This document shows, in pieces, positions 9,248 to 48,253 of a DNA stretch of 64,000 nucleotides (position 1 is its first letter; every line of letters starts with the position of its first letter). The stretch covers positions 1 through 64,000 of the forward strand of contig PGYU01000004.1 of the NCBI GenBank assembly GCA_002839825.1. The letters run 5' to 3'. The translations under genes and the position numbers were made by a program. The notes below the pieces were generated by a model that was given only the letters and a program-made list of their open reading frames with translations, was not told where the DNA came from and ran no database searches. This DNA comes from Ignavibacteriae bacterium HGW-Ignavibacteriae-1. GTDB taxonomy: Bacteria > Bacteroidota > Ignavibacteria > Kapaibacteriales > UBA2268.

Positions 9248-9292
9248 GTTAACTAAAAATTAATGAAAGCTAAATCATTGATTATTACTAAT

Positions 9293-10483: not shown

Positions 10484-10604
10484 TTGAACCTCCGAAAAAT
10501 TTATTCATGAATGTGAAATCATTATAAATCAAACGTATAAAAAAAACGCAAAAACAAAAATTAATTTATAGTCATAATATTACGATGCCAATTTTGCTGA
10601 CTTG

Positions 10605-29100: not shown

Positions 29101-29463
29101 TCCGCTCCTCCCGAAGGACAAGGACCTGCTCTTATTGTAGGTAACTTTGGTACTTCCGGCGAAAACGGTGGTGGTTTGATGGTTATCGAAGGACACACTG
29201 CTTTATCATTCAATTCCTATGATGAAACTACTACTGACTATTCAGACGTAGCTTATTCAGTTATTGATATCAATGCCGGTGCTGCTATGGCTATCACAGC
29301 TTTACCTGGCGCAGATGTTTCAGCAGATATGCCTGCTACATTGCTTTATATCATTAACTCAGGTACTTTTACTATTACTTTACCCGGTACTTTAGGTACT
29401 ATCCTAGCCGGTGAAGTTGCTACTTTTGTACACAACGGTTCAGCTTGGTACAGAATTAACTAA
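26119..29463 (+). CDS. Giant secreted fibre-like protein (1114 aa), paralog of the preceding gene
   Basis: Secreted protein with a signal peptide ending at LTQALP (about residue 23). The N-terminal domain (LVLNSNVDVRVTIFDGATEV) differs from that of its neighbour, but the middle has the same short-module style: DGSITENNGEIFWDDAASYL, LGLGTTTPGAKLHLVE, and hexads such as NDLYVTDDLFVGDSASFGSD. The last 45 residues (LLYIINSGTFTITLPG, EVATFVHNGSAWYRIN) correspond to the cap of the 1740-aa protein. No T9SS sorting domain is found. A weak AGGTG ribosome site precedes the ATG. It is probably a second fibre subunit or a phase-variable alternative of the first. Such LGxGTxxPxxxLHV motifs also occur in phage tail fibres and chaperone-of-endosialidase proteins, but no autoproteolytic domain is seen. 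Confidence 0.8.
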   Translation: MKKFHILIFGVIFLMATSLTQALPEIFYTNFARTTGGGLVLNSNVDVRVTIFDGATEVYKETHAGITTDEFGLFTVPVGGGTPVAPFNSAMYDALIASNNLNIYAESDAGDGYRFIELRSLLSTALKNAEIQGMVNLQSAYDAGNDIEVVVGFPVDLTGTGLIQSAASIADINANGDATLTTKEYVDDAIAAIFPLPQITEGDAIEILPDGYYDGTATQSIGVADNTITNAKINDNAEFAEVSSLGDGYAEGTDVGSWSVTNSNRVLNFAGVGLTNVTRDGNTVLIDGSDNWGMQVVESDATLLGDGTVGNELGVDETYPFVWTAYHQFIPSSDEPAISIDGTNSTTNPSLIAVGNADPTVPDFMLEGEMVLLGTDDTDVNAELTVYGSTQLLGQKNDGQHELYVEGDVEITGHVDAERGFFTFDNTGVGIATALFASATGDTPSNPSFPTVAQAVTGVATYSGAAPNMTDMLSANVGIAEAGAGILAIGTYGGSRSDNLVANVGAVGHAYNSLSPYNSHGTVGMVTATAAGATEIGTALGLGINSGITGINLGVAANDYAGYFIGNVNVDGDLNSTGNAVFENDVQIDGNLNVDGTITGHELLLTSGNFRVAEDVNDIPWVNINKASGTVMEIGLGTDGASAPAGYGLQINNDAGDMRAGIGLHEGNWVVGVTDGVNQAGAISGPSATMLTVLNAGTPMFVADQDGNTYVAGDLDVDGTITGTTLNGAYTEGSVLFGAADGSITENNGEIFWDDAASYLGLGTTTPGAKLHLVESTGTALFVEGVQGDATPDVMIDGEVWILGNVDTEPELYLNGGDGILLDGGADIVVADGGTLDVDGDGTFNNDLYVTDDLFVGDSASFGSDVMIVNDLTVGGLSTFENVMVNEFAESAKTGAEIAAEVSDNLFVTKDYVQGGHFGTFNTLIAFNPASGPAITATSSDATAPTVTIENTHPDGTALQVQSNNASTTAFEIPTGNMSIGNGQLIISANAGITSAPPEGQGPALIVGNFGTSGENGGGLMVIEGHTALSFNSYDETTTDYSDVAYSVIDINAGAAMAITALPGADVSADMPATLLYIINSGTFTITLPGTLGTILAGEVATFVHNGSAWYRIN

Positions 29464-32700: not shown

Positions 32701-35700
32701 TATCTATATTCAATCACCTTTGGGTGGTGGCGATGTAGCTCTTACCGGAATATCAATTGAACAAAATTTATTTGAAGATATTACAGAAGCTATCTACTTT
32801 GAAGTAGAGCCTACTGAAATTACTTTGACAAATATTAATATCAATGAAAACTGGTTTGTAAATATTGGTGCTTCATCCATCGTAATTGATGGTCCAACAC
32901 CTTATGCTGGTCAAATTGATGCAACAAACAACTACTGGGCAACTGATGATGGTCCAATAGCTTTAATGACAGCTCCGGCTTGGCATGATAATTCTACATC
33001 ATCTACCCCAATTATTGCTAACTCATATAACTATGATGTGAATAACGCTGCATCTCCAAGTGGTGTGCTTTACGAAGCTGATTATATCAACTTCGTTTAT
33101 TGGTGGCAAAACTTTAATGCAAACATGGGACCGGGTTCATTCACCGGTGACCAATTTGCTCCTATTGTAAACTCACTTGGCGACGTTTTTGCTTCTTTGA
33201 TAATTGCTCTTGACAACACTCCTACAACTGAAGATATCTTTATCGTTGCCGGTGAATTTGTTGAGTCAAACACTATACAACAACCAACACTTCCATATGT
33301 AATTAATATTTATGGTGATGTAAATGGTGGAACTTATTTCAGACCTGACGCTTTAAATGCTAATGGCGCTTATTCAGATGAATATATGTTCTATTTTGCT
33401 AGTGGTGCGGGTGTAGGTGAACTAGTTGACATATCGCTATATTTCTTACATTTAGAAGATTATCGTCCATTCGTTTTACAAGATGAAAATGTCTATGCAG
33501 GTATTTTCGTTGATGGCGACGCTGCTAATTTAGCTACCGTAAACTTCTACAATGGTTCAATAAGCGGTATAGACTTCGGTACTGATGGTACAGGTTTCTA
33601 TGCAGTTGGTAATGCTGACGTAACTGTCGAAAATTCTGACTTCATTGAAAACGAATACGCCGGTATTAGGTTAGAAAACGACGCTGTTTCTGCTCCAACA
33701 GGTACATTCATCAATAACGTAATTGACGGTGCTAATGTTACTGATTATGGTATCTATTTGGATGGTGAATTAGATGCAACAATCCAATACAACGTAATTT
33801 TTGACAATACAGGCGCAAGTGCAGGTATTTTCTCTTCAGGTATTGGTGCAGGAAGTTTGACAATCGAATATAACCAAATCTTTGAAAACGGTTACGGTAT
33901 CGAACTTGGTGCCAATGGCGTAGGCGATGATTATTCGGCTGCTGTTATCCGCAACAACGCTATCTATAATAACGTTACTGCAGGTTTGATTTACTTCCCG
34001 AACGTTGCTTCTGCTGTTACAGTTGAAGATAACTTCTGGGGTCATGACGCAGGTCCTGCTTCTTTAGGCGATTTGGGTCTTGGTAATTCACAACGTAACG
34101 CTTACTTTGATTTAGGTATAACCCAAGGCAACGCAGTTGTTGACGGTAATGCTAATTCAGAAATAGATTACTTACCTTACAGATTGACTTCAGGCTTTAC
34201 ACCAAACATTTCGATGATTGCAGGTGCAAGATTTGCTCCTATCGTCAGAACAAATTCTGCAAATATTCCAATAGATTATTATGCAAACATGATTTCTGTT
34301 GATGTTGATGTAACGTCAGGTGCAGATGAAGGTGTATATGTATATGGTGGTAACTGGGCAGACTTGTTTGTTGCAGGTAATGACGAAGTAAGATATATCG
34401 GTAAAAGAAGAATGGCTCTGTATGCAGCATCATGGTTGATTAACCCACAAGGTTCAGCCGCTGATGCATGGGATGTAGCAGACAAAGGTGCTCACCCAAT
34501 GAACGATGGACCATTATTTATTACACATAATTATCCCGGTTACTTATTTAATGCTGCATTAGGTTCTCTTACAGAAATTTCAATTCAAGGTTTTGTTTTT
34601 GATTCTAGAGAAACAACAGCTGGCGTTGATGGTCCTTATACCGGTAATTTCGATAACGGTATGTTCATATATTTCTTTTCAACAGCTGACGAAGTTACTG
34701 TAAATCAAAATACATTCCTTGCAGATGAAGATGACTCTTCAATTAACTTTGAAAGCGGTTTAGCTACTAACTGGACTATTTCTAACAACTTGATTGATGC
34801 AAGTTTGTCAACTACAACTAACAACCCATTTGCAGTAAATGTGACAAATGGAGCTGGTGGTGGTCCTCATTCAGACATTTTCATTGATGCAAATGAAATA
34901 ATCGGTGGCGCAGTAAATATTTATGCCGGCAATGATGATGTTGCTGGTGTTATGGTAACTTTCAATGAGTTTACTGATTCCAAAGCAGGTGTTATTGCTT
35001 CTGCTGTTGGTGGAGTTGGTTTCCAATTAGCAAATATCTATGTTGCCAATAACGTATTTTACGATTATCCCGGTGTTGACCAATTTGCTTTCGGTATTCT
35101 TGCCGGAACTCCGAACGACGCAGTCTTTAGTGATTGGACAACAGACATCGTTTTCACTGAAAACTTAGTCGGCGTTGACCCACTTGATGTTGCTAATACA
35201 ATGCCTGCAGTTGGTTTCCAAAATGCTACACCACTACTTACTTACACTTCAGCTATTTCAGCTACTTGTAACTGGTGGGGTTCAGTAGACGGACCTACAT
35301 TTGCTCTAAACCCGGGTGGCGATGGCGCTACTGTAAGTGAAAGAGCTTATTTTGCTCCTTGGTTATCTGGCGATGCTAATAACGTAACATTTGGATTTGA
35401 TCCATTGGATGCTTGCGACGCCGGTATCAGAGTATGGGTTAACAATACAGGTAATCCTGCTGACCAATTTATTATATTCCCGGGCTTACAAATGGCTGTG
35501 GATGACCCGTCAGTTATGGCTGGTGTGAATGATTTCATTTTCGTTCACGCTGATTACACAACAGGTGGAACTCCGGGCTTCTTGGATGAAACTGTTACAA
35601 TTAATTGGGCAGGTTTATTCGGTCCAACTTTAGCTTCGGAAACATTTGTTGACGAAATTAACCTCAGTGGTTCATTAATATTTTCAGATAATTCATTTGA

Positions 35701-38700
35701 TTTATATATGGACTCACCGATGAGATTACAAACAGACTTGATTATTGACAGTCCATTCAGTGACGGTTGGTTAGTCTTGTTTGACGACGATTTCACTGTT
35801 GAAGGTCACATTACTGAACGCGGTAACACTTCACGTGTTAATACACTTGGTGACGGTTATCTCGTTAAAGAAAATGTTGTTTTCGGTGGTATAAACAACT
35901 TCCCGGTTGCACATCCTTACGGTGGTAATGAAATGCCGGTTCAATTTGTTGCTAATAACTCTGCATTCAACGGAACAAATAATGACATCTTGAAAGTAAG
36001 AGTAATGGCTACTGATCCGATTGCAGCTAAAGGTTTAGGACAAGACGGATTCGACGTTAACGCTCTTTGGTCAATTGACTTTGTTAATGCAACAGGAGCA
36101 AATCCTGACTTTGCAATGCAATTGAGATTCCCACTTGGTCCCGTTGATGCTAACTTTGACGTAGTAACTTCATACGGTGCATTCTGGGATATGGCTCCTG
36201 GAGCAACTCAATGGACTACTAAGAAATCAAATTCTTCTTGGAACGGTTCAGACGGTATTCAGGTTACTAATCTTAACTTAGAATCAGGACAAACTGATTG
36301 GTCAGTATTCTCAGGTCCAACTTCATTTGCATTGTCAGATGAACCAAACCAAGCTCGTAACATTATGTGGTACACTACTACAGACAGAAGCATTTCCTTC
36401 AAATGGACAAAAAATGACGCAGATGCACAATTCTATGCCATTCTTGCTCGCGAAGGTACAATGATTGCTGCTCCGTCAGCGTTTACTCCAACTCCGATTT
36501 CTACTTATGTTCCTTATACTTGCCCATCAATACCTAATGGTCCTTGGACTTGTAATCCTGGTCAATTGAACTTTGCTGATGGTAATGTTAATACTGTAGA
36601 TCCGAATTTCAATTGGGATGCTTCATTATTCCATGGCGACCAAGTTCCTAACGGCGTAAGAGTAATTAAGATTGGAGAATATGGTCCAGGTGCTATATTT
36701 GATGCGACTGTTAATAACTTAGAACAAGGTACTTACTACGAATTCTTCGTAGCTAACTTTAACTACGGTGATGGTACTACTCCTCTTGCTTCTATGGAAT
36801 CAGGAGCTGACGGTATGGCTAATTACAATCTTGGTCCAAATACTTTGAATCCAAGAACTCGTAAAACTATGCCTGCTGTTTATATGACTATAGACTTTAA
36901 TGGCGGATTCGCAACTAACGTTTTGAATCAACCAAATAGAGTTTGGGCTTATTCAGTTCCGGGTGTTTACAACCCAATGGACATTTACAACAATATCGTA
37001 AAAGATAATGGTGTATTAGGCTCATACGTAGTTGAAAACCAATATAATGGTGATGATTTGATAGGCGGTCATGTTGCAGAAGTCTGTGATGATGGTGCTA
37101 ACAGCTGGACAGCCAACAACGTCAGATTGAATTTCCGTAACTACGGAAACTATACTGCTCCGGGTTGGATTATCAAATACTCAGAAAACAATGACACTAA
37201 GACATTTACTACACCTTCAACAACTGCATTTACTGATAGAACAAGAACTGCTAACACAGACTACTATTTAGTATCAGCTTATGATGGTGACGGTAAAGTT
37301 GCTTACAAATATGACAACATGCAAACAATTAGATTCCAAGTTGACGAAGTAACAGATGTAACTTTAACAGAAACACCTGTTGTTATGCCGACTTGCGAAG
37401 GTAACAACGTAACTTTAGTTTCCGCTCCAAATAGCTATCCAAATGCTAATTTTGACAGATGGGAATATGATAACGGTAGTGGTTGGACAACTTTCACTAC
37501 TGCATTACCGGGTGGCTCAGCTGCTACAGGTGGTACATCAAATACTATTACATTAGACTATGCTGATAACGGAACTAACATTCGTGCGGTTTACACTAGT
37601 AATTCAATTTGCGACTTAGGTCTCGAATTTAATACTAATGCAATCCAACTTAGTATCTACGATGCTACTTTGACCGGTTTGCAACCTTATACAACTGCAC
37701 CTAGTGTTGTTGATACTGAAGCTCCGGGTGTATGCGAAGGCGCTAACGTAACATTCCAAGCTGATGCTGGTGGTCCTTACGCTTCACCAAACAGCTTAAC
37801 CTTTATTGGTTGGGAATATTTTGACGTCGCATGGAATACATTAGCAGACGGTGCTTTGGCAGGTGCTACTATTTCCGGTGCAGCTACTCAAACAATGACA
37901 ATTACAGGCGCTACTGTTGCTATGAACGGATATGATTTCCGCGCTGTATGGCAAAATGGTGACTGTTCTGTCGTTCCGACTACTGAAACTAACCTTGAAG
38001 TAATCACTCAACCTGTTATTTCACAACAACCAGTTGTTACTCCTGTTACAGTATGTGCAGGAACTGACATAGATGTTGATGCAATTGGCACACCTTTCAC
38101 AAGTGTACAATGGCAAATAAGCAACGATAACTCGACTTGGGTTGACCTTGTTGACGGTGCTGCATATGTTTACATGGGTGGAACTGCTGAAATTGCAGGT
38201 GCTACTACAGAAAACCTTACAATTACTCCGGTAGATAATACTTGGGATGCATTCTACGTACAAATCGTTTATACAAACGCAGGTAACGAAGGCGACGAAT
38301 GTATTACAACTTCAAACTCAGCACAACTTGACATCTTGTTGGCTCCAATCGTAACTGCATTTACTTCTCCTGTTACAGTTTGTGAAGGTTCGAATAATAG
38401 CTACTTAGCTACTATAACTAATCCTTACAATACTCCTGTACTTTGGGAATATAATGACGGTATCAGTGGTTGGTTATCACTTGGTGCAGGCGTTGTTGAT
38501 GGTACAACAGTATCATTCACAGGTGCCGGCGACGAAACACTTAATTTAGATAACATTGATTTAACATGGAATGGCTATCAAGTTAGAGTAACTGCTACAA
38601 ATGGCACTTGCTCAGATACAGAAGGCTTCACAGTTAACGTTGATGAATTACCTGTTGTAGTTACTAACCCTGTTGATGATGATGTTTGTGAATTCGGTAA

Positions 38701-41368
38701 CTTACAATACACTGCAGATTTCACTCCAACTACTGCTACAGTAACTTGGAAATTCTGGAATGGTGTTGTTTGGGCTGATGTTGTTGATGGCGTTTCATTA
38801 ACAGCTAACACATTCAACGTACCTACTATTACTACAGTTGGTGGTACAACTACTTTAGATGTTACTAACGTAAATGTTGCAATCAATGGCTGGGATGTAA
38901 GAGTTGCTCTTGATAACGGTGTTTGTGGTACAGTTAATACAACTGATGCAAATATGGGTATCTTCACAGTTCCTACTGTTCCTAACCCAATTGGTGCCCA
39001 AAACATCTTGTCGCATAAATTTGATGTTACTTATCCTGCTGACGCAAATGCAGTATCTTGGGATATCCAAGTTGCTGATGATGCCGGATTTACTAATATC
39101 GTTTACTCGACTACAGGTGCAGGTGCTTCACCATTTACAGGTATGACTGATTGTATTCTTGACCCTGCGTCAACTTACTACTTCAGAGTTCAAGCAGTTA
39201 ATGCTTGCGGTGTATCAGGATGGAGTACTCCTTCGAATCTCGTTACTTTAGACCCAACTGTTACAAACATGGCATGGTTAGGTGGATTTGACGGCGACTT
39301 CGGTACAGGCGACCTTGGAACTCCAACTGCAGCACAAACTTTGAGATTTACTTACTATCAATTAGACGCTGACATTGCAATGACAATTCCTGCCGACTTC
39401 GAAGCATTTATCGGTGGTAATTGGGTTACCGGTGTACAAAACTTAGGTTTGACACTTTATCTTGGCACTTCAGGTGCTCCTTTGACAACAGATATCTCAG
39501 TTCGTTTCAACGCTACAGTTTGTGGTGTAATTGATGAAGATATTACAATTGCTTCTAACGAAACATGTTCAGGTCATACTGACATAACAGTTGGTTCAAT
39601 CGCAGTTGAAGGATTTGGTAAAGTTCCACAACCTACTGTTCAAGCAAGCGCTGTTTACTTTACAGCTAACGCTAACACTAATTTCGACTTTACATGGACT
39701 AATGGTGATGGTAATGGCAGATTAGTAACAATCGTTGAAGACGGTGCTACTCCTTGGTCACCAACAGACTTTACTGATTATAGCAGTGTTGCAAGCACTA
39801 CTTTGGCTGGTGGTAATGAAATTACAACCGGTAACTGGATTGTTGCAGCAGGTAACGTATCAGGACCTTTGAATGTTAGTGGTTTGACTGCAGGCGTAGT
39901 TTACTATGCTTATGTATTCGAATTCAACGAATGTGCTTCAGGTACTGAAGATTACTTAACTCCTGGCGCTGTTGGTCAAGTTTACCAATTGGCATTCTTA
40001 ACTGACGAACCATCAACACCAATGAATGGTATTCCTGACCAAACTTCAGGCGTAGCATTTACACAATCAGACGAAACAACTCCACTTGAAATCGAAGTAA
40101 TGTTGTATGACCGTGCCGGCGCTCCGATAGCTAATCCATTTGGTGGATTTAGCGTATCAATCGCTGGTGACCCGGCTCTTGGATCAGTATCAGTTGATGC
40201 CGGTTCTACAACAATTGCTAACGGTGCTGCAAGTACAGCAGGTACTCCAATGACAATCACTTGGACTTATGCTAACGGTATTTTGAATGCAAACTTAGTT
40301 GCTTCAACTACTCAACTTGGTGTCTTAACCGGTGAATCGAATGACTTCGTTCTTAACGTTGCTCCTCCGACTACACAAGCTAAGATCATCCTTTGGGTTG
40401 GCATACCTTGTGCAGCCGGTACTGAATTCAAATGGACTAACGGTGACGGTGCTTCCAGACTCGTTGTAGGTCGTGACGGTTCTTTACCTGAATTACCAAC
40501 AGACTTGACTGATTATTCTGCACTTGCTAATACTGATTTCTCACTTGCCGGTACTCTCGGAACTGATACAAAGGTTCTTTCAGTTATCAATGGTAGTGGA
40601 AACTCAATTACAGTTACAGGTTTAACACTTAACCAAACTTACTACTTCCGCGTTTACGAATTTAATGGTACTGGCGGATTAGAAAGATACTTAACTGACA
40701 ACGCATCATTCAACCCGCGTTCACGTAAGATTACTTGCTCAGATGGAAACAACTTGTTTGACCTTATCGTTGAAGACTTCAACGTTGTTTCAGGCAAAGG
40801 TAAAGGAATCGTTTCTTGGAATACTGAATATGAACAAAATATCTCAGGTTTCGAAGTTTCGAGAATTGACCTTACTGAAGGTTCAAGCATGAATCCAATG
40901 CTCGTAGGTACTTATATGAATGCTGAAGAACTCGTTGCTGCCGGCAACACTACTACAGGTCAAACTTACAAATATACTGACAACACCGTGACTCTCGAAG
41001 TTGGCAGAACATACTTGTATCAATTGACTGCAGTTGCTTATGACGGCACACGTCTTGATGTTGCTGAATCAGAAATTACAATTACTGACGATATCATTGC
41101 AGGTCCGGCTGAATTCAGCGTAACTCCTGTTCAAGTTATCAACAATGAAGCTACTTTCAAAGTTATCACTAACACTACTCAAGATGCTACTATCGAACTC
41201 TACGATGTAATCGGTAACAGAGTTGCTGTAATAGCAAATGGTATCGCTTTAGGTGTTGGCGCTAACGAATTTAGCTGCCCGGTTGACAAACTTGTTAACG
41301 GTACATACATCATCTCCGTAAACGGTAAAGATGTATCAGCTATTCAGAAGTTCCAAATCGCAAGATAA
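29765..41368 (+). CDS. Giant T9SS adhesin-like protein (3867 aa) with beta-helix and Ig-like modules
   Basis: The largest gene in the window. The signal peptide ends near residue 22 (STSAWSA). Residues about 23-1880 hold four right-handed beta-helix modules. The first opens with DYTTIQAAVNAAAGNDIIYV as in pectate-lyase-like folds, and each module closes with an aromatic/Gly-Pro cap: WNFWDVVGP (about 644), NYWATDDGP (about 1055), NFWGHDAGP (about 1423) and NWWGSVDGP (about 1835). Five Ig-like domains, each starting with a Cys-Glu/Ala-Gly motif (PTCEGNN, GVCEGAN, TVCAGTD, TVCEGSN, DVCEFGN), cover about 2535-3060, followed by a fibronectin-III-like domain. The end (TIELYDVIGNRVAVIANG, LVNGTYIISVNGKD) is a T9SS type A sorting domain. 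It should be displayed on the cell surface. Adhesion or polysaccharide contact is inferred. No catalytic residues were identified. Confidence 0.88.
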   Translation: MKKLSTLLTILVCFILLSTSAWSATWTVDNVGGGDYTTIQAAVNAAAGNDIIYVNGTGTAYTENVNIPGGKNQLSIIGVDDGSGLPVLDGSGVANPKVAFRVSSDNVTIQKMVIQNYFYAGATNVDHGSAQRGVGIESLIASSGHTFSNNTIDNCNWGIYVREGNSISVSNNTITNTVATSHGSGYPFTGGTGIAFVSAGVSLDENSIEDNTVTTTAYYGVFFGRRLDGGVPVNGDNVVINGNTIGAAGIGNNGFAIFVNNIKPNDALRIENNVLNANEAGLLLDQNAAAMTDVNVFGNEFNNTVSTIEVQTDDLFDGGTLYDIMFNNDNIFDEGTPTTNPGAVAALDASVEAVVSTGSNRFIRNNFATAIVDGELYLSAAAASTDVKVYAMAGLYADEVAVVTSNPANMQNMEITGEVSGANNLAIARGDATGSTIFDIDQLGNLTVTFQSINVEVNGTVAQTGIRTESSNTSVFGSNFTSIVNSAGVFGVMAVSDLSQQTGFVFEDNTVNGFFEIGVGIDQDNFLISCNQFGTSNGVGDGIFITDFNTDLVDIIGGRIIRNTSLDIAPSVAWNIRVNFPTALSGGLVVGEPDAGNFFNSGDRAVSVTQLADNQISVNYNRFLLDSYSFWIVNNNAFDLNAGWNFWDVVGPNYNAAISAMISGAGAANVSFLPIYTDGTDMDLDACGFQVDPTSVWVPVYTAVSETDPLTDVNALFFWTIEDALADASTGIGSGGTPERYAVLLYNNTAFGENNPLSVDFPVWIGGAPAQASNGNIAPDPTFWTVVAQNNAAPLFEVTVTGTVTDPIAFDNLTLLPSSAGLSSANNAILIDVVGAMSYLSVTNNIFNVANVNQSNAIYVDATTTTSIDEFYIYNNEFMKNDAGYALRVATPIVSTDIEFLSNNILWNIAGSSPGFSIYFEDGVDGLTVLGNNFEAGILLESVLNNIDNLQIGAAGTHGLGFLQGNTFFNPNVSGLAYGIYIQSPLGGGDVALTGISIEQNLFEDITEAIYFEVEPTEITLTNININENWFVNIGASSIVIDGPTPYAGQIDATNNYWATDDGPIALMTAPAWHDNSTSSTPIIANSYNYDVNNAASPSGVLYEADYINFVYWWQNFNANMGPGSFTGDQFAPIVNSLGDVFASLIIALDNTPTTEDIFIVAGEFVESNTIQQPTLPYVINIYGDVNGGTYFRPDALNANGAYSDEYMFYFASGAGVGELVDISLYFLHLEDYRPFVLQDENVYAGIFVDGDAANLATVNFYNGSISGIDFGTDGTGFYAVGNADVTVENSDFIENEYAGIRLENDAVSAPTGTFINNVIDGANVTDYGIYLDGELDATIQYNVIFDNTGASAGIFSSGIGAGSLTIEYNQIFENGYGIELGANGVGDDYSAAVIRNNAIYNNVTAGLIYFPNVASAVTVEDNFWGHDAGPASLGDLGLGNSQRNAYFDLGITQGNAVVDGNANSEIDYLPYRLTSGFTPNISMIAGARFAPIVRTNSANIPIDYYANMISVDVDVTSGADEGVYVYGGNWADLFVAGNDEVRYIGKRRMALYAASWLINPQGSAADAWDVADKGAHPMNDGPLFITHNYPGYLFNAALGSLTEISIQGFVFDSRETTAGVDGPYTGNFDNGMFIYFFSTADEVTVNQNTFLADEDDSSINFESGLATNWTISNNLIDASLSTTTNNPFAVNVTNGAGGGPHSDIFIDANEIIGGAVNIYAGNDDVAGVMVTFNEFTDSKAGVIASAVGGVGFQLANIYVANNVFYDYPGVDQFAFGILAGTPNDAVFSDWTTDIVFTENLVGVDPLDVANTMPAVGFQNATPLLTYTSAISATCNWWGSVDGPTFALNPGGDGATVSERAYFAPWLSGDANNVTFGFDPLDACDAGIRVWVNNTGNPADQFIIFPGLQMAVDDPSVMAGVNDFIFVHADYTTGGTPGFLDETVTINWAGLFGPTLASETFVDEINLSGSLIFSDNSFDLYMDSPMRLQTDLIIDSPFSDGWLVLFDDDFTVEGHITERGNTSRVNTLGDGYLVKENVVFGGINNFPVAHPYGGNEMPVQFVANNSAFNGTNNDILKVRVMATDPIAAKGLGQDGFDVNALWSIDFVNATGANPDFAMQLRFPLGPVDANFDVVTSYGAFWDMAPGATQWTTKKSNSSWNGSDGIQVTNLNLESGQTDWSVFSGPTSFALSDEPNQARNIMWYTTTDRSISFKWTKNDADAQFYAILAREGTMIAAPSAFTPTPISTYVPYTCPSIPNGPWTCNPGQLNFADGNVNTVDPNFNWDASLFHGDQVPNGVRVIKIGEYGPGAIFDATVNNLEQGTYYEFFVANFNYGDGTTPLASMESGADGMANYNLGPNTLNPRTRKTMPAVYMTIDFNGGFATNVLNQPNRVWAYSVPGVYNPMDIYNNIVKDNGVLGSYVVENQYNGDDLIGGHVAEVCDDGANSWTANNVRLNFRNYGNYTAPGWIIKYSENNDTKTFTTPSTTAFTDRTRTANTDYYLVSAYDGDGKVAYKYDNMQTIRFQVDEVTDVTLTETPVVMPTCEGNNVTLVSAPNSYPNANFDRWEYDNGSGWTTFTTALPGGSAATGGTSNTITLDYADNGTNIRAVYTSNSICDLGLEFNTNAIQLSIYDATLTGLQPYTTAPSVVDTEAPGVCEGANVTFQADAGGPYASPNSLTFIGWEYFDVAWNTLADGALAGATISGAATQTMTITGATVAMNGYDFRAVWQNGDCSVVPTTETNLEVITQPVISQQPVVTPVTVCAGTDIDVDAIGTPFTSVQWQISNDNSTWVDLVDGAAYVYMGGTAEIAGATTENLTITPVDNTWDAFYVQIVYTNAGNEGDECITTSNSAQLDILLAPIVTAFTSPVTVCEGSNNSYLATITNPYNTPVLWEYNDGISGWLSLGAGVVDGTTVSFTGAGDETLNLDNIDLTWNGYQVRVTATNGTCSDTEGFTVNVDELPVVVTNPVDDDVCEFGNLQYTADFTPTTATVTWKFWNGVVWADVVDGVSLTANTFNVPTITTVGGTTTLDVTNVNVAINGWDVRVALDNGVCGTVNTTDANMGIFTVPTVPNPIGAQNILSHKFDVTYPADANAVSWDIQVADDAGFTNIVYSTTGAGASPFTGMTDCILDPASTYYFRVQAVNACGVSGWSTPSNLVTLDPTVTNMAWLGGFDGDFGTGDLGTPTAAQTLRFTYYQLDADIAMTIPADFEAFIGGNWVTGVQNLGLTLYLGTSGAPLTTDISVRFNATVCGVIDEDITIASNETCSGHTDITVGSIAVEGFGKVPQPTVQASAVYFTANANTNFDFTWTNGDGNGRLVTIVEDGATPWSPTDFTDYSSVASTTLAGGNEITTGNWIVAAGNVSGPLNVSGLTAGVVYYAYVFEFNECASGTEDYLTPGAVGQVYQLAFLTDEPSTPMNGIPDQTSGVAFTQSDETTPLEIEVMLYDRAGAPIANPFGGFSVSIAGDPALGSVSVDAGSTTIANGAASTAGTPMTITWTYANGILNANLVASTTQLGVLTGESNDFVLNVAPPTTQAKIILWVGIPCAAGTEFKWTNGDGASRLVVGRDGSLPELPTDLTDYSALANTDFSLAGTLGTDTKVLSVINGSGNSITVTGLTLNQTYYFRVYEFNGTGGLERYLTDNASFNPRSRKITCSDGNNLFDLIVEDFNVVSGKGKGIVSWNTEYEQNISGFEVSRIDLTEGSSMNPMLVGTYMNAEELVAAGNTTTGQTYKYTDNTVTLEVGRTYLYQLTAVAYDGTRLDVAESEITITDDIIAGPAEFSVTPVQVINNEATFKVITNTTQDATIELYDVIGNRVAVIANGIALGVGANEFSCPVDKLVNGTYIISVNGKDVSAIQKFQIAR

Positions 41369-41388: not shown

Positions 41389-41419
41389 AAGCCCGCTCAA
41401 TTGAGCGGGCTTTTTTTTT
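41389..41419 (+). terminator. Rho-independent terminator of the surface locus
   Basis: A perfect palindromic stem AAGCCCGCTCAA/TTGAGCGGGCTT with no spare loop bases, followed by nine T residues. It lies 20 bp after the giant gene's stop and is the strongest intrinsic terminator in the window. Confidence 0.93.
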
Positions 41420-41472
41420 GCTTTATTATTATTTTTGCATTGTGTTATTTAGAAATTTATTATATTGAATCC

Positions 41473-43446
41473 ATGCACGATACAAGTTTGATATTAGACT
41501 TATTGATTGTATTCACGCTATCTATAGCCGTTGTTTACATCTTTAATAGAATCAAAATTCCACCTATAGTTGGTTTTTTGCTGACGGGATTATTAATTGG
41601 TCCAAACGGTTTTCATCTAATCGGAATGGAAGAAGAAGTGGAAATTTTCGCCGAAATTGGCGTTATACTTATCCTCTTTTCGATTGGAATTGATTTCTCA
41701 GTTAGCAAATTGCTTAATATGAAGCGAAACATTATATTAGGCGGTTCCGTGCAAGTTCTCTCGACAATTGCTGTGATTGCACTAATAAGTTACGGAATAG
41801 GCTTTGAAGTAAACGTTGCTATTTTCTTAGGTTTCCTTGTAGCATTGAGTTCCACTGCCATAATACTGAAACTACTGATTTCCAATGGTGCACTCGAAAC
41901 ACCGCAAGGGAAAATCTCACTTGGAATACTAATATTCCAAGATATAATAATACTGCCTATGTTTTTGGTGACACCTCTTCTGGCAGGGATGTCAGAAAAT
42001 ATCGTTTTATCGGTTGTGCTACTTATTGCAAAAATTGTTGGGATTCTGGCGTTTCTTTACATTTCAATTAAATTTGTGATGCCAAAACTCATTTTCGCTG
42101 TCGCAAAAACACGCATCAAAGAGCTCTTCTTTTTCATCATAATTTTAATCGCACTCGTAGTTGTGTGGCTGTCCTCCGTACTTGGGATCTCACTCGCACT
42201 TGGAGCATTTCTCGCCGGATTAATCATTTCCGAATCCGATTATAGCCACGAAGCTCTCAGCTTTGTAGAGCCAATGCGAGATGTCTTCGGCTCCATCTTT
42301 TTCATTTCAATTGGGATGTTATTTGACGTAAGTCTCGTAATTGAAAATTGGGAATTTGTGTTATTTGGCACCTTGATAGTACTTATTGTCAAATTCTTCA
42401 GTCTTAGTCTTGCCGTATTCTTTTTGGGCTATCCTATCCGAATCATCATACTCGTCGGACTTATGTTAGCACAAATTGGGGAATTCTCATTCGTGCTTTC
42501 AAAAATTGGATTAGATAGCGGAATAATTAGTTTCGATATCTACAGCAAAGTTATCGCAGTCGCCGTCATTAGTATGCTTTTCACACCACTATATTTCGAA
42601 TTCGCTCCCAAAATCGCATTGGCAATTGGCAATCTAAAAATATTCGAAAAATATAATAACCGAGCCAAAACCGAAGCCGAACCACCCAAGAAATTGTCAA
42701 ACCACATGATAATAGTCGGATTCGGACTAAACGGTCGAAATCTGACAAAAGCAGCTTCAATTGCCGGACTCGAATACATTGTATTGGAAATGAACCCGAT
42801 TACCGTCAAAAATGAGAAAGAAAATGGCGAACCGATTCACTTTGGCGATGCCTCCAACGAAGCTATACTCGAATTTGTATCTGTCAAAAAAGCAAAAATA
42901 TTGGTCATTGCGATTTCCGACCCAACATCAACACGCGCCATAATTGCACAAGCCAAAAATATCAACCCCGACATTTACATAATTGCCCGCACACGTTTCG
43001 TCCAGGAAGTTCAAGCCCTTTACACATTAGGCGCCGATGAAGTAATTCCCGAAGAATTTGAAACATCAATTGAAATCTTTACCCGCGTGCTGACCAAATA
43101 TTTGATACCTCGTCAGGAAATCGAACGCCTTGTGAACGACATCCGCTCCGACGGCTACGATATGCTCCGTTCCATCAGCCGCCGAACAAGTTATACAGAC
43201 ATTGCAGAACACATCCCGCATTTCGATGTGTGCTCAATCCGCATTACCGACAAACACCATTTTATCGGCAAGTCGCTCAACGAACTTAAAATCCGCAACC
43301 GCTACGAACTCACCGTTTTAGCCGTCAAACGTGGCTCTGAATACATTGCAAACCCCCAAGCCGAAGAAGTAATTGCCAAAGACGACATACTAATCACCTG
43401 GGGCGAAAGAAAGCAAATCAGCGAATTCAACACGGATTTGGAGTAG
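41473..43446 (+). CDS. CPA2 cation:proton antiporter with RCK (TrkA-N/TrkA-C) domains
   Basis: KefB/KefC-like monovalent cation/proton antiporter, 657 aa, in the inner membrane. The ATG in ESMHDTSL is chosen because upstream in-frame codons run into the terminator hairpin. About twelve transmembrane segments fill residues 1-385, with the family motifs VGFLLTGLLIGPNG, VLILFSIGIDFS and LGAFLAGLIISES. An RCK/TrkA-N domain follows (MIIVGFGLNGRNLTKAASIA, nucleotide-binding Rossmann fold), and then a TrkA-C domain (VCSIRITDKHHFIGKSLNEL). It probably exports K+ or Na+ in exchange for protons under nucleotide control. It stands alone. The family is firm; the ion is not known. Confidence 0.93.
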   Translation: MHDTSLILDLLIVFTLSIAVVYIFNRIKIPPIVGFLLTGLLIGPNGFHLIGMEEEVEIFAEIGVILILFSIGIDFSVSKLLNMKRNIILGGSVQVLSTIAVIALISYGIGFEVNVAIFLGFLVALSSTAIILKLLISNGALETPQGKISLGILIFQDIIILPMFLVTPLLAGMSENIVLSVVLLIAKIVGILAFLYISIKFVMPKLIFAVAKTRIKELFFFIIILIALVVVWLSSVLGISLALGAFLAGLIISESDYSHEALSFVEPMRDVFGSIFFISIGMLFDVSLVIENWEFVLFGTLIVLIVKFFSLSLAVFFLGYPIRIIILVGLMLAQIGEFSFVLSKIGLDSGIISFDIYSKVIAVAVISMLFTPLYFEFAPKIALAIGNLKIFEKYNNRAKTEAEPPKKLSNHMIIVGFGLNGRNLTKAASIAGLEYIVLEMNPITVKNEKENGEPIHFGDASNEAILEFVSVKKAKILVIAISDPTSTRAIIAQAKNINPDIYIIARTRFVQEVQALYTLGADEVIPEEFETSIEIFTRVLTKYLIPRQEIERLVNDIRSDGYDMLRSISRRTSYTDIAEHIPHFDVCSIRITDKHHFIGKSLNELKIRNRYELTVLAVKRGSEYIANPQAEEVIAKDDILITWGERKQISEFNTDLE

Positions 43447-43501
43447 GAAAATAAAATGAAAAAGCCGGTATGAATTATTATCGTTCGAATGGTAAGAAAT
43501 A

Positions 43502-43789
43502 ATGAAAAAAAGTGTTAATATAGCGTGGATAGTTATACCAATTATGTTGGTATTAGCTTTAGTTGCATTATTGGTTGTAGCAGCTTATGACGAAGGTATT
43601 ATTAGAAATAATTTTTTAGTTAAATTGTGTTTCGGTTTGTTAAGTTTTTTCTCGTTTCCATTTAAATATTTTGAAGCTTGGAAAATATTTACAAGGTGGT
43701 GGGCGTTTATCTTATACTTTCTAAATGTAATCTTTTGGGCTATAATTCTTGTTTACATTGTAAAACTTTTAAAAGCCTTATATGAATAA
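43502..43789 (+). CDS. Small two-helix membrane protein, candidate orphan immunity protein
   Basis: A 95-aa protein with two hydrophobic helices (WIVIPIMLVLALVALLVVAA, then FILYFLNVIFWAIILVYIV) and a short basic C-terminus. I recognise no family. Its ATG overlaps the stop of a small upstream frame ending GMNYYRSNGKK (TAATG overlap), and an Rhs-like fragment begins in its own 3' end. This overlap pattern is typical of toxin-immunity pairs at the ends of Rhs proteins, so I suggest an immunity-type function. Codon use is AT-rich and unlike that of the antiporter gene before it. Function is not established. Confidence 0.5.
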   Translation: MKKSVNIAWIVIPIMLVLALVALLVVAAYDEGIIRNNFLVKLCFGLLSFFSFPFKYFEAWKIFTRWWAFILYFLNVIFWAIILVYIVKLLKALYE

Positions 43790-43910
43790 CAGGATGTTAA
43801 GAATGCCAACCTCGAAATTCTTTCAGAGCCACTATTTAAAGCACAAGCAGTACGAACTGAAAGACCAAGAAAGACAAAACAAGATTGAAAATTTTGGAGT
43901 TAGCCGATGA
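43782..43910 (+). pseudogene. Rhs/YD-repeat protein fragment fused to a short tail
   Basis: An in-frame remnant whose core reads SHYLKHKQYELKDQERQ. The motif HxLKHKQYELKDHLGNVR is the junction block of Bacteroidota Rhs-type proteins and recurs complete about 820 bp downstream. Here, right after LKD, the expected HLGNVR is replaced by QERQNKIENFGVSR and a stop. That stop overlaps the ATG of the next lipoprotein gene (ATGA). The simplest reading is a deletion joining an Rhs core to the last codons of a former C-terminal toxin, leaving the immunity gene in place. Too short to be functional. Confidence 0.6.
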
Positions 43911-44371
43911 AAAAATATTTATATATATTATTAGTAATAATACTCAGTTCTTGTCAGAAAAATATTCAGGAAACCTTATATGAAAAAATCAACTTGTCTT
44001 TAGGTGCAAAAGACACAATGACTATTAATATAACTGAATATATTGAATTTGACTGGGATAGTGCTTTTGTATTCAGATCTTCAATATCTGTTGAAAGAAT
44101 CAACGAAATAATGGGAATTGACTTTAAAGATACAAAGGGGGATGGTTTAAGAATATTGTTTATTAAAAACCAGAAAGTCATATTATATGATTTTACAGAA
44201 CAAATGTGGGATACATTTGAATTTCGTGAAACGTATGATTTAGATGAAAGAATTTTCTTTTTACTTCCTGAACAAGGTTATTTGAGATTTGATATGGAAA
44301 ATGCATATTTTTATGCAGAAAGGGAGTTTGCAGATGGTGAAAATTATATATCATTAGATTTATTAGAATAA
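43907..44371 (+). CDS. Small lipoprotein, candidate orphan Rhs immunity protein
   Basis: A 154-aa protein with an SPII signal (YILLVIILSSCQKN, lipid Cys near residue 16) and an acidic soluble domain with alternating strands (VFRSSISVERINEIMGIDF, then ILFIKNQKVILYDF). No family is recognised. Its ATG overlaps the stop of an Rhs-derived fragment by ATGA, which suggests translational coupling to a vanished toxin. Rhs immunity proteins are often small, acidic and sometimes lipoproteins. This role is inferred from position only. Confidence 0.55.
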   Translation: MKKYLYILLVIILSSCQKNIQETLYEKINLSLGAKDTMTINITEYIEFDWDSAFVFRSSISVERINEIMGIDFKDTKGDGLRILFIKNQKVILYDFTEQMWDTFEFRETYDLDERIFFLLPEQGYLRFDMENAYFYAEREFADGENYISLDLLE

Positions 44372-44437
44372 AAAAAATAATATAAATAGTTGGAGTTTTT
44401 CGAAGTAAGAATCTACTTTCTAAGTTCAACGAATTAA

Positions 44438-44737
44438 CAAAGGCATTACCCCTTAGACTCTATCAATTATACTAATCCCGCAGACAATCCGTTTTTATCA
44501 AATATTACACAGTATCACGTGAGTCCAAACTACTATACAGCTATGACAAACGAGTGGTATATATACGGAAGCAGTGGTCACGGGCGATTTGCCCGAGCTT
44601 TCCCCGTTGGTCTCGATGGTGGCTATGATAATCTATTCTTCCATACTTCACCTGCGATTCAGAGCCGCCACTTGAAGCATAAGCAGTATGAACTGAAAGA
44701 CCATCTCGGCAATGTGCGTGTGGTGGTGATACTATGA
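44438..44737 (+). pseudogene. Rhs/YD-repeat core fragment
   Basis: An open frame without a proper start. It reads through YHVSPNYYTAMTNEWYIYGS, with the GSSGHGRF block matching the common YIYGSSRLGR motif. It continues to SRHLKHKQYELKDHLGNVR and stops three codons later (VVVIL). In intact Rhs-type proteins this block continues with a VSD-type sequence and a PFGM motif, so the gene has been truncated or frame-shifted just after the core. DNA similarity to the fragment at 43782 covers about 60 bp. It is a relic of a large polymorphic toxin gene. Confidence 0.7.
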
Positions 44738-44821
44738 TGAGAGAGTGCAATACCGATAGCTAAAATAAAAATTTTCCTTTGGTGTCCTTGAACTTAGTTT
44801 GTTGAAATTGGAATAAGAGTG

Positions 44822-45070
44822 ATGCCAGTAGTATCGATTTTTTATGGAATCATCATCAAGATGTTCTTTCGGGACCATAACCCGCCTCATTTGCACGCTG
44901 TTTATGGCGAGTTTAATGGATTGATAGACCTCCGGACTTTAGAGATGTTCGAAGGTGATTTACCTCCACGTGCTTACGAATTAGTTCGTGAGTGGGCAAA
45001 AAATTATCAAGAGATTTTGCTCGAAATGTGGGAAAATCAAGAGTTCAAGAAACTTCCCGGTTTGAAATAA
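44822..45070 (+). CDS. DUF4160 protein
   Basis: An 82-aa protein; a GTG codon just before the chosen ATG is an alternative start. The signature FFRDHNPPHLHAVYGEFNGL is diagnostic of DUF4160, followed by GDLPPRAYELVREWAKNYQ. DUF4160 and DUF2442 genes are commonly adjacent and are suspected, not proven here, to form toxin-antitoxin-like or regulatory modules. The partner starts 1 bp after this stop. The pair sits among Rhs scars, so it probably came with mobile or accessory DNA. Confidence 0.85.
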   Translation: MPVVSIFYGIIIKMFFRDHNPPHLHAVYGEFNGLIDLRTLEMFEGDLPPRAYELVREWAKNYQEILLEMWENQEFKKLPGLK

Positions 45071-45071
45071 C

Positions 45072-45323
45072 ATGACCAAATACCCGAAAATCATTGACGC
45101 CAAAGCAAAATCACCTTATGTGATTGAGGTGCTGTTTGATAATCAAATCACCAAAATCTACGACTTTGAACCTTTGCTGAGTGATGCGAATTTCCGAATC
45201 TTGAATGAGTTCAATGTTTTCAAAAACTTCTCGATTTCAGCCGGTGGCTACGGTTTGGAATGGAACGAAGATTTAGACATCAGCGAATCCGAACTTTGGG
45301 TGAATGGGAAGGAGAGAGAGTGA
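45072..45323 (+). CDS. DUF2442 protein
   Basis: An 83-aa partner of the preceding DUF4160 protein. The family pattern is visible: VIEVLFDNQITKIYDFEPLL, then FKNFSISAGGYGLEWNEDLD and SESELWVNG. DUF2442 proteins are small alpha/beta proteins; some members bind DNA. The 1-bp spacing implies co-translation with DUF4160. The downstream membrane-protein gene starts 1 bp after this stop, so all three may be one transcript. Confidence 0.88.
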   Translation: MTKYPKIIDAKAKSPYVIEVLFDNQITKIYDFEPLLSDANFRILNEFNVFKNFSISAGGYGLEWNEDLDISESELWVNGKERE

Positions 45324-45324
45324 A

Positions 45325-45651
45325 ATGTTTCTTTTGAAATATATCTTTTGGCTTAGTATAATATCTTTTTTCAATTGTTATTTATTTTGGATAAGCTACA
45401 ATCTACAAAACGTGGGATTATTTCAAAAGTTCAATGATTTTTACAGAAATGGATATAGCATTGTTTCTACATTATCATACTTTGGTGGCGGAATAACATT
45501 AATTCTTGGAATCTTTAACTTATTATACTTTTTTTTGTTTCGAAAAAAAACTAAGAATGATGATAAACGCCATTACTTTTATTATACACCACTAATCCTC
45601 GGATTTGTATGGATTATATATATGATTTTAATTTTGAATCATGAAGCATGA
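45325..45651 (+). CDS. Small three-helix membrane protein of unknown function
   Basis: A 108-aa protein with three hydrophobic helices (LKYIFWLSIISFFNCYLFWI, then LSYFGGGITLILGIFNLLYF, and LILGFVWIIYMILIL) separated by a short basic loop. No family match is recognised. The ATG two bases after the DUF2442 stop is preferred to an in-frame ATG inside that gene. Its stop overlaps the ATG of another Rhs-like scrap (ATGAAGCATGA). Like its neighbours in this zone, it may be an orphan immunity protein or cargo; that is speculative. Confidence 0.55.
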   Translation: MFLLKYIFWLSIISFFNCYLFWISYNLQNVGLFQKFNDFYRNGYSIVSTLSYFGGGITLILGIFNLLYFFLFRKKTKNDDKRHYFYYTPLILGFVWIIYMILILNHEA

Positions 45652-45714
45652 AAACCTCTACCCCTTTGGGATGCTCCCGCCCGGCATGTACTCCGAGAAC
45701 GACGCCCCCCCACC
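45641..45714 (+). pseudogene. Rhs-type PFGM fragment
   Basis: A short frame reading NLYPFGMLPPGMYSEND, then APPPQK. YPFGM-L-x-PG is the block that follows DHLGNVR in Bacteroidota Rhs/YD proteins. The stretch is strikingly GC-rich compared with the flanking genes, which marks it as foreign relative to them. It runs into the 3' end of the convergent lipoprotein gene without any further Rhs similarity. It is a third relic of the same kind within 2 kb. Confidence 0.55.
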
Positions 45715-46803
45715 TCAAAAATACGTATTAGTTAGATTTAGTGATAAGAACATTCCAATATCATATGGTAATAATTTCCCTTTAATATATCCCTCTTGGT
45801 AAAAGCCTAATGTAACTGAAAATTTGTCCGAAATGTAGTACCCAATTGATTGCTTTAATTTGGTTCCAAAATAAAACCCATTAAACTTATCTTTTGTATT
45901 TTCAGTTTGACCACCTATTGAATAAGAAAGATCGATAAATAAACCATTCTTTTGTGGAGTTAAGTTAAATCTGTGAATAATTGGTATTGAAAAGGATAAG
46001 GATTTCCCTGTAATAACACCATTCGAAACGTCAGAAAATTGAACAGCAATACCGCGACCAAATTCATATCTAATATTCGGTCTTGTATAAAAAACAATAT
46101 ATGTCAACTGAATTCCATAATCTACTTTAAACCCTTTGTAAATATTAGCTATTACTCCGGATTTGGAGTCGAATTTAAATATTTGATATAAATCTACGGT
46201 GTCAATATCTTTCTTGCTTTCTTCGCTTGTAGTTGTATTCTGCTTAGTGGTGTCCATTGGATAATTCTTAAAATGATTGTATTGAAAAAATCTGGCGGTA
46301 TTTCGTATGCCACTCCTTATCAACTTATTTTGTTCTTGAATTTTTGGGTCCCAACATAAATTTGCTGAATCAAGGATTCTAAATTTGTTGATTTTATTAT
46401 TATAAGGATATTCAAACAAATAAGAATATTTATAAGTGGCGCACACACCAAAAAATTCAGCATATCTTCCGGAGTAAAATTCATCAATATAAACAGTGAC
46501 CGGGATTTTTTTTGATTGACTTGTGTCCGTGCTCATCAAAGTATTCAAAGACATTTTTATATAATCTTTCAATGGTCTATTTAATATCAATGGCTTTTGA
46601 AAGGCATCAGCCTCCCCAATTATCGAATCGGGGAGATTTCTATTATCAATTACCTGCACTACTTCAAAGCTATCAAGTAAGTATAATTTATCATTTTTAG
46701 CTAAATAAAATTTCGTCCCATCAAAAATATTTGATTCGGTAGCACAGGAATACAACAAGCATAATGATGAAATAAAGATTATTTTGTTAAATAATATTTT
46801 CAA
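45715..46803 (-). CDS. Lipoprotein with probable outer-membrane beta-barrel end
   Basis: A 362-aa protein of unknown function. The SPII signal ends at ISSLCLLYSCATES (Cys20). The N-terminal half is a soluble domain (LYLLDSFEVVQVIDNRNLPD, then KIPVTVYIDEFYSGRYAEF). A low-complexity linker (TTKQNTTTSEESKKD) separates it from a C-terminal half of amphipathic strands (FNGFYFGTKLKQSIGYYISD, KFSVTLGFYQEGYI) ending in Tyr-Phe, as in outer-membrane barrels. It lies just downstream of the Rhs scars on the opposite strand, and the next lipoprotein gene is 44 bp upstream. No named family is recognised. Confidence 0.6.
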   Translation of the reverse strand: MKILFNKIIFISSLCLLYSCATESNIFDGTKFYLAKNDKLYLLDSFEVVQVIDNRNLPDSIIGEADAFQKPLILNRPLKDYIKMSLNTLMSTDTSQSKKIPVTVYIDEFYSGRYAEFFGVCATYKYSYLFEYPYNNKINKFRILDSANLCWDPKIQEQNKLIRSGIRNTARFFQYNHFKNYPMDTTKQNTTTSEESKKDIDTVDLYQIFKFDSKSGVIANIYKGFKVDYGIQLTYIVFYTRPNIRYEFGRGIAVQFSDVSNGVITGKSLSFSIPIIHRFNLTPQKNGLFIDLSYSIGGQTENTKDKFNGFYFGTKLKQSIGYYISDKFSVTLGFYQEGYIKGKLLPYDIGMFLSLNLTNTYF

Positions 46804-46847
46804 GCCTCAATTTCCTAATATTAATATCGAAGCAATTCCCCAAACCC

Positions 46848-47510
46848 CTATTTTATAGAGTAATCAACTAATTCGACCATTCCCGAAGGACCGAAATCTA
46901 TCTTAATCCAACCTACTGATTTGGAGAAATACATTCCATACCTTGATGTTCGACTCCATTCTTGAAGATATGGATGATAAGATTGAGTTTCGATAGCCAT
47001 CAATATTATATCAGTATATGCCTTACCTCTGACCACAAAAGTATCCAATTTATCCAAAACTTCGAATATATATCGGTTGCGCATATTATTTAAATACAAT
47101 TCACTACTTATCCATTTGGTACCAATAGGCTCATCGGGTTTCAAGAAACATAATTCATATTCTTTTGAAACACCATAATCTGCTCCAAATCCTAATACGA
47201 AATACTGATTGTTTTCAACTCTAATAAAATATTCGTCAGTTTGATTTTTCATAACATCTCTCATTGATGCATAATAAACATCATCAATTTTTTGTTCGTC
47301 AATACAAGTGGTTGTGTGTCCCATATCCTGACCTGCTATCGCACCTTCGTATTTCCACCAAGAACCTTTTGAGGTGGGCCAATAAGAGTTTTCAGGCTTC
47401 TCGTTGCCGTTCAAATATGGGTCGTCATCGCTTTTGACCGGATTGCTGCTTTCTTTCTGGCACGAAATAATAAAAGTAGCAATTACTATAAATAATAAAA
47501 TCTTCTTCAT
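46848..47510 (-). CDS. Lipoprotein of unknown function
   Basis: A 220-aa protein with an SPII signal (LFIVIATFIISCQKES, Cys17) and a low-complexity, disordered start. The body is aromatic-rich with the motif YWPTSKGSWWKYEG, a pattern frequent in uncharacterised FCB lipoproteins in which a Trp-Trp-x-Tyr motif opens a beta-sandwich (WxF/Y repeats of the TPM or DUF-type). The end (SVGWIKIDFGPSGMVELVDY) resembles the same family. It is surface-exposed or periplasmic. It sits in a minus-strand run with a TPR protein upstream (35-bp gap) and a second lipoprotein downstream. Confidence 0.6.
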   Translation of the reverse strand: MKKILLFIVIATFIISCQKESSNPVKSDDDPYLNGNEKPENSYWPTSKGSWWKYEGAIAGQDMGHTTTCIDEQKIDDVYYASMRDVMKNQTDEYFIRVENNQYFVLGFGADYGVSKEYELCFLKPDEPIGTKWISSELYLNNMRNRYIFEVLDKLDTFVVRGKAYTDIILMAIETQSYHPYLQEWSRTSRYGMYFSKSVGWIKIDFGPSGMVELVDYSIK

Positions 47511-47545: not shown

Positions 47546-48253
47546 TTAAATCACCGCTTCTCCAAAATCATCTAAAGCGGCAAGTCCGTTTCTCGCTTTT
47601 ACGTCGTTGGGGTCTAATTCCAATGCTTTGCGATATGCAATCCGAGCATCATATTTTTTGTTCAAATTCAAATAGGCATCGCCAAGTAAAGCACATGCTG
47701 AAGGGCTTTCAGGGTTGTTGTCAACGACGTTTTTCAAGGCTGTCGCCGCTTCTTCGTAAAATCCCATCCGTAAGCATACTACGCCGAGATGGAAAAATGC
47801 GATGAGAAATTTTGGCTGAACTTTCGTGACGTGGGAGAAAAATTCTCTTGCTTCGGATAAATGCCCGCAATGATAGCTTAATATGCCCGACCAGTAATGT
47901 GCTATCAAGAAATTCTTGTCTAATTCGATACATTTTGCCAATGAGCGTAATCCTTTTTTCAAGCTGCCCATCCGATAATAACCCAATCCCAATTCGAAAT
48001 ATATCGTCGGGAAACTTGGCAATTTTTCGGCACCTATTTCAAGGTAGTGAACCGATTGCTCGATATCGCCGAGTCTGTAGAGTGCATTTCCGATATGTTT
48101 GTAAACAATTGCTAAGTCGGGATCACGGTCCAATGCTTTTTTGTAATGCTCGATTGCGTCCAGATACTGACCCTGTGTTTCGTGTTGGTAAGCTTCCAAA
48201 ATATCGGGGTCGTCCGAATCAAATCTAATATTAAGTCTATTTAAATCATTCAT
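47546..48253 (-). CDS. Tetratricopeptide-repeat protein
   Basis: A 235-aa cytoplasmic protein built almost wholly of about six TPR units (for example AIEHYKKALDRDPDLAIVYK, HIGNALYRLGDIEQSVHYLE and IAYRKALELDPNDVKARNGL). It has no signal peptide or catalytic domain and is expected to be a protein-protein scaffold. It lies between the acyl-CoA dehydrogenase-type metabolic genes and the lipoproteins on the minus strand. The partner is unknown. Confidence 0.88.
   Translation of the reverse strand: MNDLNRLNIRFDSDDPDILEAYQHETQGQYLDAIEHYKKALDRDPDLAIVYKHIGNALYRLGDIEQSVHYLEIGAEKLPSFPTIYFELGLGYYRMGSLKKGLRSLAKCIELDKNFLIAHYWSGILSYHCGHLSEAREFFSHVTKVQPKFLIAFFHLGVVCLRMGFYEEAATALKNVVDNNPESPSACALLGDAYLNLNKKYDARIAYRKALELDPNDVKARNGLAALDDFGEAVI

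Follow-up and report, generated by a model that had tools for sequence, protein, structure and literature searches.

Displacement of C-terminal tips has been described in Enterobacteriaceae, where it yields dissociated Rhs tips (Jackson 2009, PMC2935791), and orphan rhs-CT/rhsI immunity units have been described as well (Koskiniemi 2014, PMC3967940). In the T6SS clusters of Vibrio cholerae, sequential effector displacement produces arrays of orphan immunity genes (PMC5361080), and clusters of immunity-type genes are also described as polyimmunity loci (Zhang 2012, PMC3482391). Neither tip displacement nor the occurrence of orphan immunity genes in arrays is new as such. The DhiT/DhiA toxin-antitoxin (TA) pair was shown to work in Dickeya dadantii, and dhiTA has been tested in a plasmid stability vector (PMC8198452).

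Here we analyze a locus of Ignavibacteriae bacterium HGW-Ignavibacteriae-1 that resembles each of these systems and differs from each; below, the window means the whole stretch of 64,000 nucleotides that was analyzed. In Enterobacteriaceae, recombination in the core displaces C-termini and explains rows of core fragments that bear tips and immunity genes. The locus likewise carries repeated core pieces, but it has no full-length parent, its pieces are short (about 15-75 codons), the toxins have been lost by deletion, and a TA pair stands between them. As in the V. cholerae T6SS arrays, effectors are lost and putative immunity-type genes are kept in an array, but here Rhs core scraps serve as separators, and protection is putative. 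Similarly to polyimmunity loci, different putative immunity-type genes that vary between strains are clustered without linked toxins; here, in contrast, the genes encode small membrane proteins and a lipoprotein with no match to an Imm family, and Rhs scars lie between them. We consider it probable that the locus is an acquired, worn remnant of a displaced array of Rhs tip cassettes, from which toxins were lost while immunity-type genes were kept, with a TA pair lodged among the scraps.

Rhs core fragments

The features of the locus are listed in Table 1. Scar 2 is the top match in a six-frame search of the window with an Rhs-core profile built from relatives (74 aa, E = 7.6e-16; E = 2.7e-12 with a second profile) and includes RHLKHKQYELKDHLGNVRVVV. 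Scar 1 repeats part of it at the DNA level: in a DNA search of the whole genome, it matched positions 44658-44703 of scar 2 with 87% identity (E = 2.5e-9). The core of scar 1 stops after YELKD. Because of their shortness, scars 1 and 3 do not reach significance alone in the profile search, where they rank second (E = 0.25) and third (E = 1.8). In scars 1 and 2, the reading frame ends no more than 14 codons past the core, and no toxin C-terminal domain was matched behind the core pieces among the window proteins. Judged from the profile match and the repeat, scars 1 and 2 are of Rhs ancestry.

Table 1. Features of the locus and its flanks (positions in the window)
Feature	Position	Strand	Remark
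KefB-like cation/proton antiporter with TrkA-like tail	41401..43446	+	Left conserved flank; named from reading the protein
Strain-specific segment A (small genes, scars 1 and 2, DhiT)	43461..45071	+	No counterpart in G001 and G002, which hold other genes there
Membrane protein, 95 aa, 27% GC	43502..43789	+	Immunity-like by position and type only
Rhs scar 1: ...SHYLKHKQYELKD fused in frame to tail QERQNKIENFGVSR, then stop	43822..43867 (ORF 43782-43910)	+	Repeat of scar 2
Lipoprotein, 154 aa, lipobox LSSC, 26% GC	43907..44371	+	Probable orphan immunity gene; homologue in G005
Rhs scar 2: EWYIYGSSGHGRF...SRHLKHKQYELKDHLGNVRVVV, then stop	44510..44734	+	Rhs-core profile
Leader TTGGTGTCC... before DhiT	44779..44806	+	Common to the leader of a RelB-type antitoxin elsewhere in the genome
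DUF4160, predicted DhiT-type toxin	44819..45070	+	Pfam E = 3.6e-19; NCBIfam toxin_DhiT E = 1e-25
DUF2442, predicted DhiA-type antitoxin	45072..45323	+	Pfam E = 1.1e-12
Membrane protein, 109 aa, 25% GC	45325..45651	+	Immunity-like by position and type only
Rhs scar 3: NLYPFGMLPPGMYSENDAPPP	45653..45714	+	Motif; starts just past the membrane-gene stop
Lipoprotein or outer-membrane-like protein	45715..46803	-	Strain-specific, not Rhs-related; 40% identical homologue in G050
Lipoprotein, no role assigned	46848..47510	-	Strain-specific; missing at the site in both G001 and G002
TPR-like protein	47546..48253	-	Right conserved flank; named from reading the sequence

An earlier note on this DNA, made by reading the sequence, had reported two copies of LKHKQYELKD and one YPFGM fragment. 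Both observations hold: the six-frame translation of the window contains exactly two copies of KHKQYELKD (for the looser pattern [YF]E[LIMV]KD, block-shuffled sequence of 64 kb gives an expectation of 0.13), and YPFGM occurs once (45659-45673) and in none of 60 block shuffles. Since the profile match of scar 3 (about 14-21 aa) is not significant, its assignment rests on motif, strand, and position; the YPFGM piece is short but unlikely to be due to chance, and it lies in a patch of 62% GC among genes of 25-30% GC. The non-significance of scars 1 and 3 taken singly is what would be expected if the motifs were chance or unrelated sequence rather than Rhs, but the profile match of scar 2 and its repetition in scar 1 refute a chance origin for these two, and shuffled sequence contains the motifs rarely or not at all, making this explanation extremely improbable.

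Small membrane proteins and the lipoprotein

The small cargo genes have a GC content of 25-27%, compared with 38.7% for the window, and the starts or stops of three of the reading frames overlap. The overlap noted at 43499-43502 is real (TAATG, at 43502), but the frame upstream of it that ends in MNYYRSNGKK, about 15 codons with an ATG at 43470, showed no similarity to Rhs and was rejected as a scar. The Rhs fragment with a foreign tail does overlap the lipoprotein start, through the ATGA at 43907-43910 that ends the ORF of scar 1. The last frame, opening at 45641, overlaps the end of the second membrane gene upstream of its stop codon (TGA, 45649-45651), as had been claimed, but its Rhs-like codons begin only at 45653, after that stop.

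None of the three genes has a Pfam or NCBIfam match. No convincing homologue of the membrane genes was found in 295 genomes; weak matches in G198, G076, and G026 were dropped because no Rhs motif lies beside them. The lipoprotein has a homologue in G005, a genome of the same family but another genus (31% identity, E = 1.3e-8). There, a VVSQKEFD core scrap with a short tail overlapping the lipoprotein frame is followed by the lipoprotein and by the next scrap, MVSQKEFEVKDHLGNVR..., and the two core scraps share 91% identity along 33 bp. The window has the same toxin-less plan: ...KHKQYELKD with the tail QERQNKIENFGVSR, the lipoprotein, and the next core scrap, which reads ...KHKQYELKDHLGNVR. 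A wide contig scan for more relatives of the lipoprotein returned only the G005 contig again, a third relative (in G157) has no Rhs nearby, and no intact toxin was found beside members of this family. AlphaFold, run with two sequences, gave no usable structure for the lipoprotein (pLDDT 42). A natural explanation is that the lipoproteins of the window and of G005 are immunity genes of lost toxins and that the tail QERQNKIENFGVSR would be the end of one such toxin. By their position and type, the two membrane genes are probably immunity-type as well. Protection still conferred by these three genes is a putative function.

Predicted toxin-antitoxin pair

Between scar 2 and the second membrane gene, a DUF4160 gene is followed on the same strand by a DUF2442 gene, with 1 bp between them. 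The order DUF4160 toxin, then DUF2442 antitoxin, on one strand is that of DhiT/DhiA in D. dadantii (PMC8198452), but the window pair lies among Rhs scars, its DhiT score is just under the NCBIfam equivalog cut-off (90.2 bits versus 100), and the DhiA match is weak (17.1 versus 200). Judged from family identity, 44819-45323 is a predicted DhiT/DhiA-type type II TA pair, not a set of immunity genes. The earlier note had missed this pair and regarded the small genes as immunity-like; homology to an unrelated known function, which it held to speak against that view, was found for 44819-45323, and for neither of the membrane genes nor the lipoprotein.

The leader of the DhiT gene is 88% identical over 41 bp (E = 6.8e-7) to a segment just before the start of a RelB-like antitoxin gene (G000:C14:11769-11809). 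A leader TTTGGTGTCC... is common to the DhiT gene of the window and to RelB-like antitoxin genes at that position and at G000:C36, near 66340.

Variability of the site

Three genomes share the kefB-TPR site, namely the window genome and the congeners G001 and G002. The antiporter is 96% identical in amino acid sequence to that of G002 and 89% to that of G001. Collinearity with both congeners (blastn) ends at 43460 on the left side and resumes from 47547 on the right side. An Rhs-core profile detected no Rhs scraps at the site in G001 or G002. Instead, G002 has an apparently secreted 140-aa protein, and G001 has a methyltransferase and a 150-aa PIN-like protein (PIN by eye, with no Pfam PIN match). 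As the congeners have other small genes and no Rhs scraps, the site is variable. Its cargo was probably imported. The DUF2442 gene is the only island gene common to the window and both congeners (95% nucleotide identity to G002 and 94% to G001, where the copy has an internal stop codon). The identity to G001 exceeds that of the neighboring antiporter gene (84%; binomial P = 1e-6), which suggests lateral exchange at the site.

The same data could be expected of a generic accessory-gene hot spot, where illegitimate recombination brings in small AT-rich genes and TA modules, and where the Rhs scraps would be hitch-hiking filler unconnected to the genes beside them. The congeners' site does hold unrelated small genes without Rhs scraps, and the genes at 45715-47510 of the same region are not of Rhs type; no Rhs motif lies beside the G050 homologue of the first of them. 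But the succession of core scrap, tail, lipoprotein, and core scrap recurs in another genus (G005), and the overlap of frames fits the expectation for a toxin/immunity operon, so that we regard a hot spot with Rhs filler as unlikely.

Upstream of the site, several other genes can be observed. A single secreted-looking repeat protein of 3867 aa (29765-41368) directly precedes the antiporter gene and is itself preceded by two further long secreted-looking proteins (20742-25964 and 26119-29463). Four ferritin-like paralogues, three of them diverged, stand in a row at 8638-11144 (named from reading the sequences).

Rhs cores in related genomes

The scrap query matched in 27 of 198 genomes, the window genome included, and the fetched regions together with the window yielded 101 core matches at E < 1e-3. 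In G125:C81, G076:C23, G018:C65, G026:C112, and others, core fragments follow one another on one strand at intervals of 1-3 kb. In most cases, the fragment runs into a tip of 110-330 aa, which is followed by one small gene, often encoding a lipoprotein or a membrane protein. Some ORFs beside toxin-bearing cores match the Pfam families Imm27 and Imm-NTF2-2. This layout corresponds to the C-terminal displacement of Jackson et al. (PMC2935791) and to the orphan rhs-CT/immunity units of Koskiniemi et al. (PMC3967940).

Locus L116 (G018:C72, 3653-4381) combines a FRIMDKRQY frame and about 60 foreign codons with a subsequent signal-peptide protein, and is possibly a third toxin-less cassette. Eroded Rhs cores in G026, G039, and G051 are followed by DUF559 (endonuclease-like) genes that closely resemble one another (L092 8530-8916, L130 424-816, and L134 6439-6831).

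The parent Rhs protein, already said by the earlier note to be missing from the window, is missing more widely. DNA, protein, and profile searches of the 98.8%-complete genome found no parental Rhs of the scar lineage; the only Rhs core of this genome, at C34, belongs to a different sequence lineage. Relatives of the scar core were found nowhere in the genomes of the two congeners, both of which do hold Rhs cores (TIGR03696). A weak match next to HicA/RelB-like genes at G000:C36 (E = 0.027) failed confirmation with the relatives' profile and was rejected. Because the parent of the scraps is absent from the genome and from the congeners, import of debris is likelier than local tip exchange; more likely, the tips were swapped elsewhere and the debris was imported. 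Thus, the earlier proposal of repeated tip exchange that leaves immunity genes behind is retained in part. Tip exchange with retention of immunity genes agrees with the core-tip-immunity arrays of relatives and with the lipoprotein slot of G005, but its repetition at the kefB-TPR site does not agree with congeners lacking both scraps and relatives of the scar core, nor with a genome lacking the parent.

TA genes beside eroded Rhs cores

The core matches of the fetched regions were divided by the length of the frame after the core into truncated and toxin-bearing ones. ORFs of TA families (PIN, ParE, HicA, HicB, RelB-like, and DUF2442, chosen after looking at the data) made up 10 of 63 beside truncated cores and 1 of 122 beside toxin-bearing cores (Fisher P = 1e-4), in sets that include some spurious frames, with the ParE gene of G042 added by hand to the eroded set and with the intact set rich in immunity genes by construction. 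Genome-wide, five PIN and ParE matches lie within 2.5 kb of Rhs cores, compared with 0.5 expected (P = 1.7e-4). About 95% of the PIN and ParE genes of relatives are not near Rhs, and such a small share near Rhs (about 5%) also agrees with a generic accessory-gene hot spot. DhiTA-type (DUF4160/DUF2442) pairs adjoin Rhs scars in three genera, represented by the window, G033:C57, and G042:C14. In G033:C57, the DUF4160 frame is broken by an in-frame stop, and the DUF2442 frame ends inside the next core piece, its stop codon lying within the codons for NNYYSYG.

Two loci illustrate such neighborhoods. In L138 (G033:C57, 24-1721), Rhs scraps alternate with DUF4160/DUF2442 and with a PIN gene and its small partner. 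In L129 (G076:C82, 11573-12878), two Rhs core pieces that are adjacent in the core profile (positions 131 and 132) flank a PIN gene and small partner on the opposite strand, as if a VapBC-like module had inserted into an Rhs gene.

Several interpretations of this association can be considered. TA modules have been proposed to stabilize integron arrays. By analogy, DhiTA-like modules could be functional array members that occupy tip slots and kill cells losing the array, through recombination between repeated core pieces, thereby stabilizing the immunity store. Both enrichments and the recurrence in three genera are consistent with this scenario, as is the test of dhiTA in a plasmid stability vector mentioned above; but the congeners keep only the antitoxin-type gene, once with a stop, unlike an active addiction system, DUF4160 of G033 is interrupted, and the association would be equally expected if both kinds of genes pile up in dispensable DNA. 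We consider such a stabilizing role very unlikely. It is likewise distinctly unlikely, though slightly less so, that in this bacterial lineage type II TA modules (DhiTA, VapBC, RelBE/ParDE, and HicAB) insert preferentially into eroded Rhs tip slots, where they would take the place of the former toxin and keep the orphan immunity genes from being lost. Dispensable DNA may generally attract TA modules. A direct report of TA modules within Rhs arrays was not found in the open-licence literature searched.

Origin of the locus

The most probable scenario for the locus is decay of a displaced tip-cassette array. In relatives, a cassette consists of a short conserved Rhs core piece with a toxin tip, followed by an immunity-type gene. 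Each new cassette would enter by recombination in the core and displace the older ones in the downstream direction, and such core recombination would have built the array in another genome or in an ancestor. The toxins would then have been lost, leaving short core pieces, the lipoprotein, and probably two small membrane proteins. TA modules would have colonized the remnant, with DhiT/DhiA placed between scraps. Since neither the genome nor its congeners contain a parental Rhs of the scar lineage, the debris was probably brought by lateral transfer.

In this scenario, the locus represents the late decay of a displaced Rhs array that has no parent weapon: toxins were lost first, while immunity-type genes and a few core codons stay. 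The TA association is a less expected point than the Rhs leftovers. That TA genes are enriched next to eroded cores can be tested further; no description of this pattern was found in the literature searched, and it may only reflect dispensable DNA. If the small genes still protect, the cell would be defended against the Rhs toxins of its neighbors without owning the weapon.
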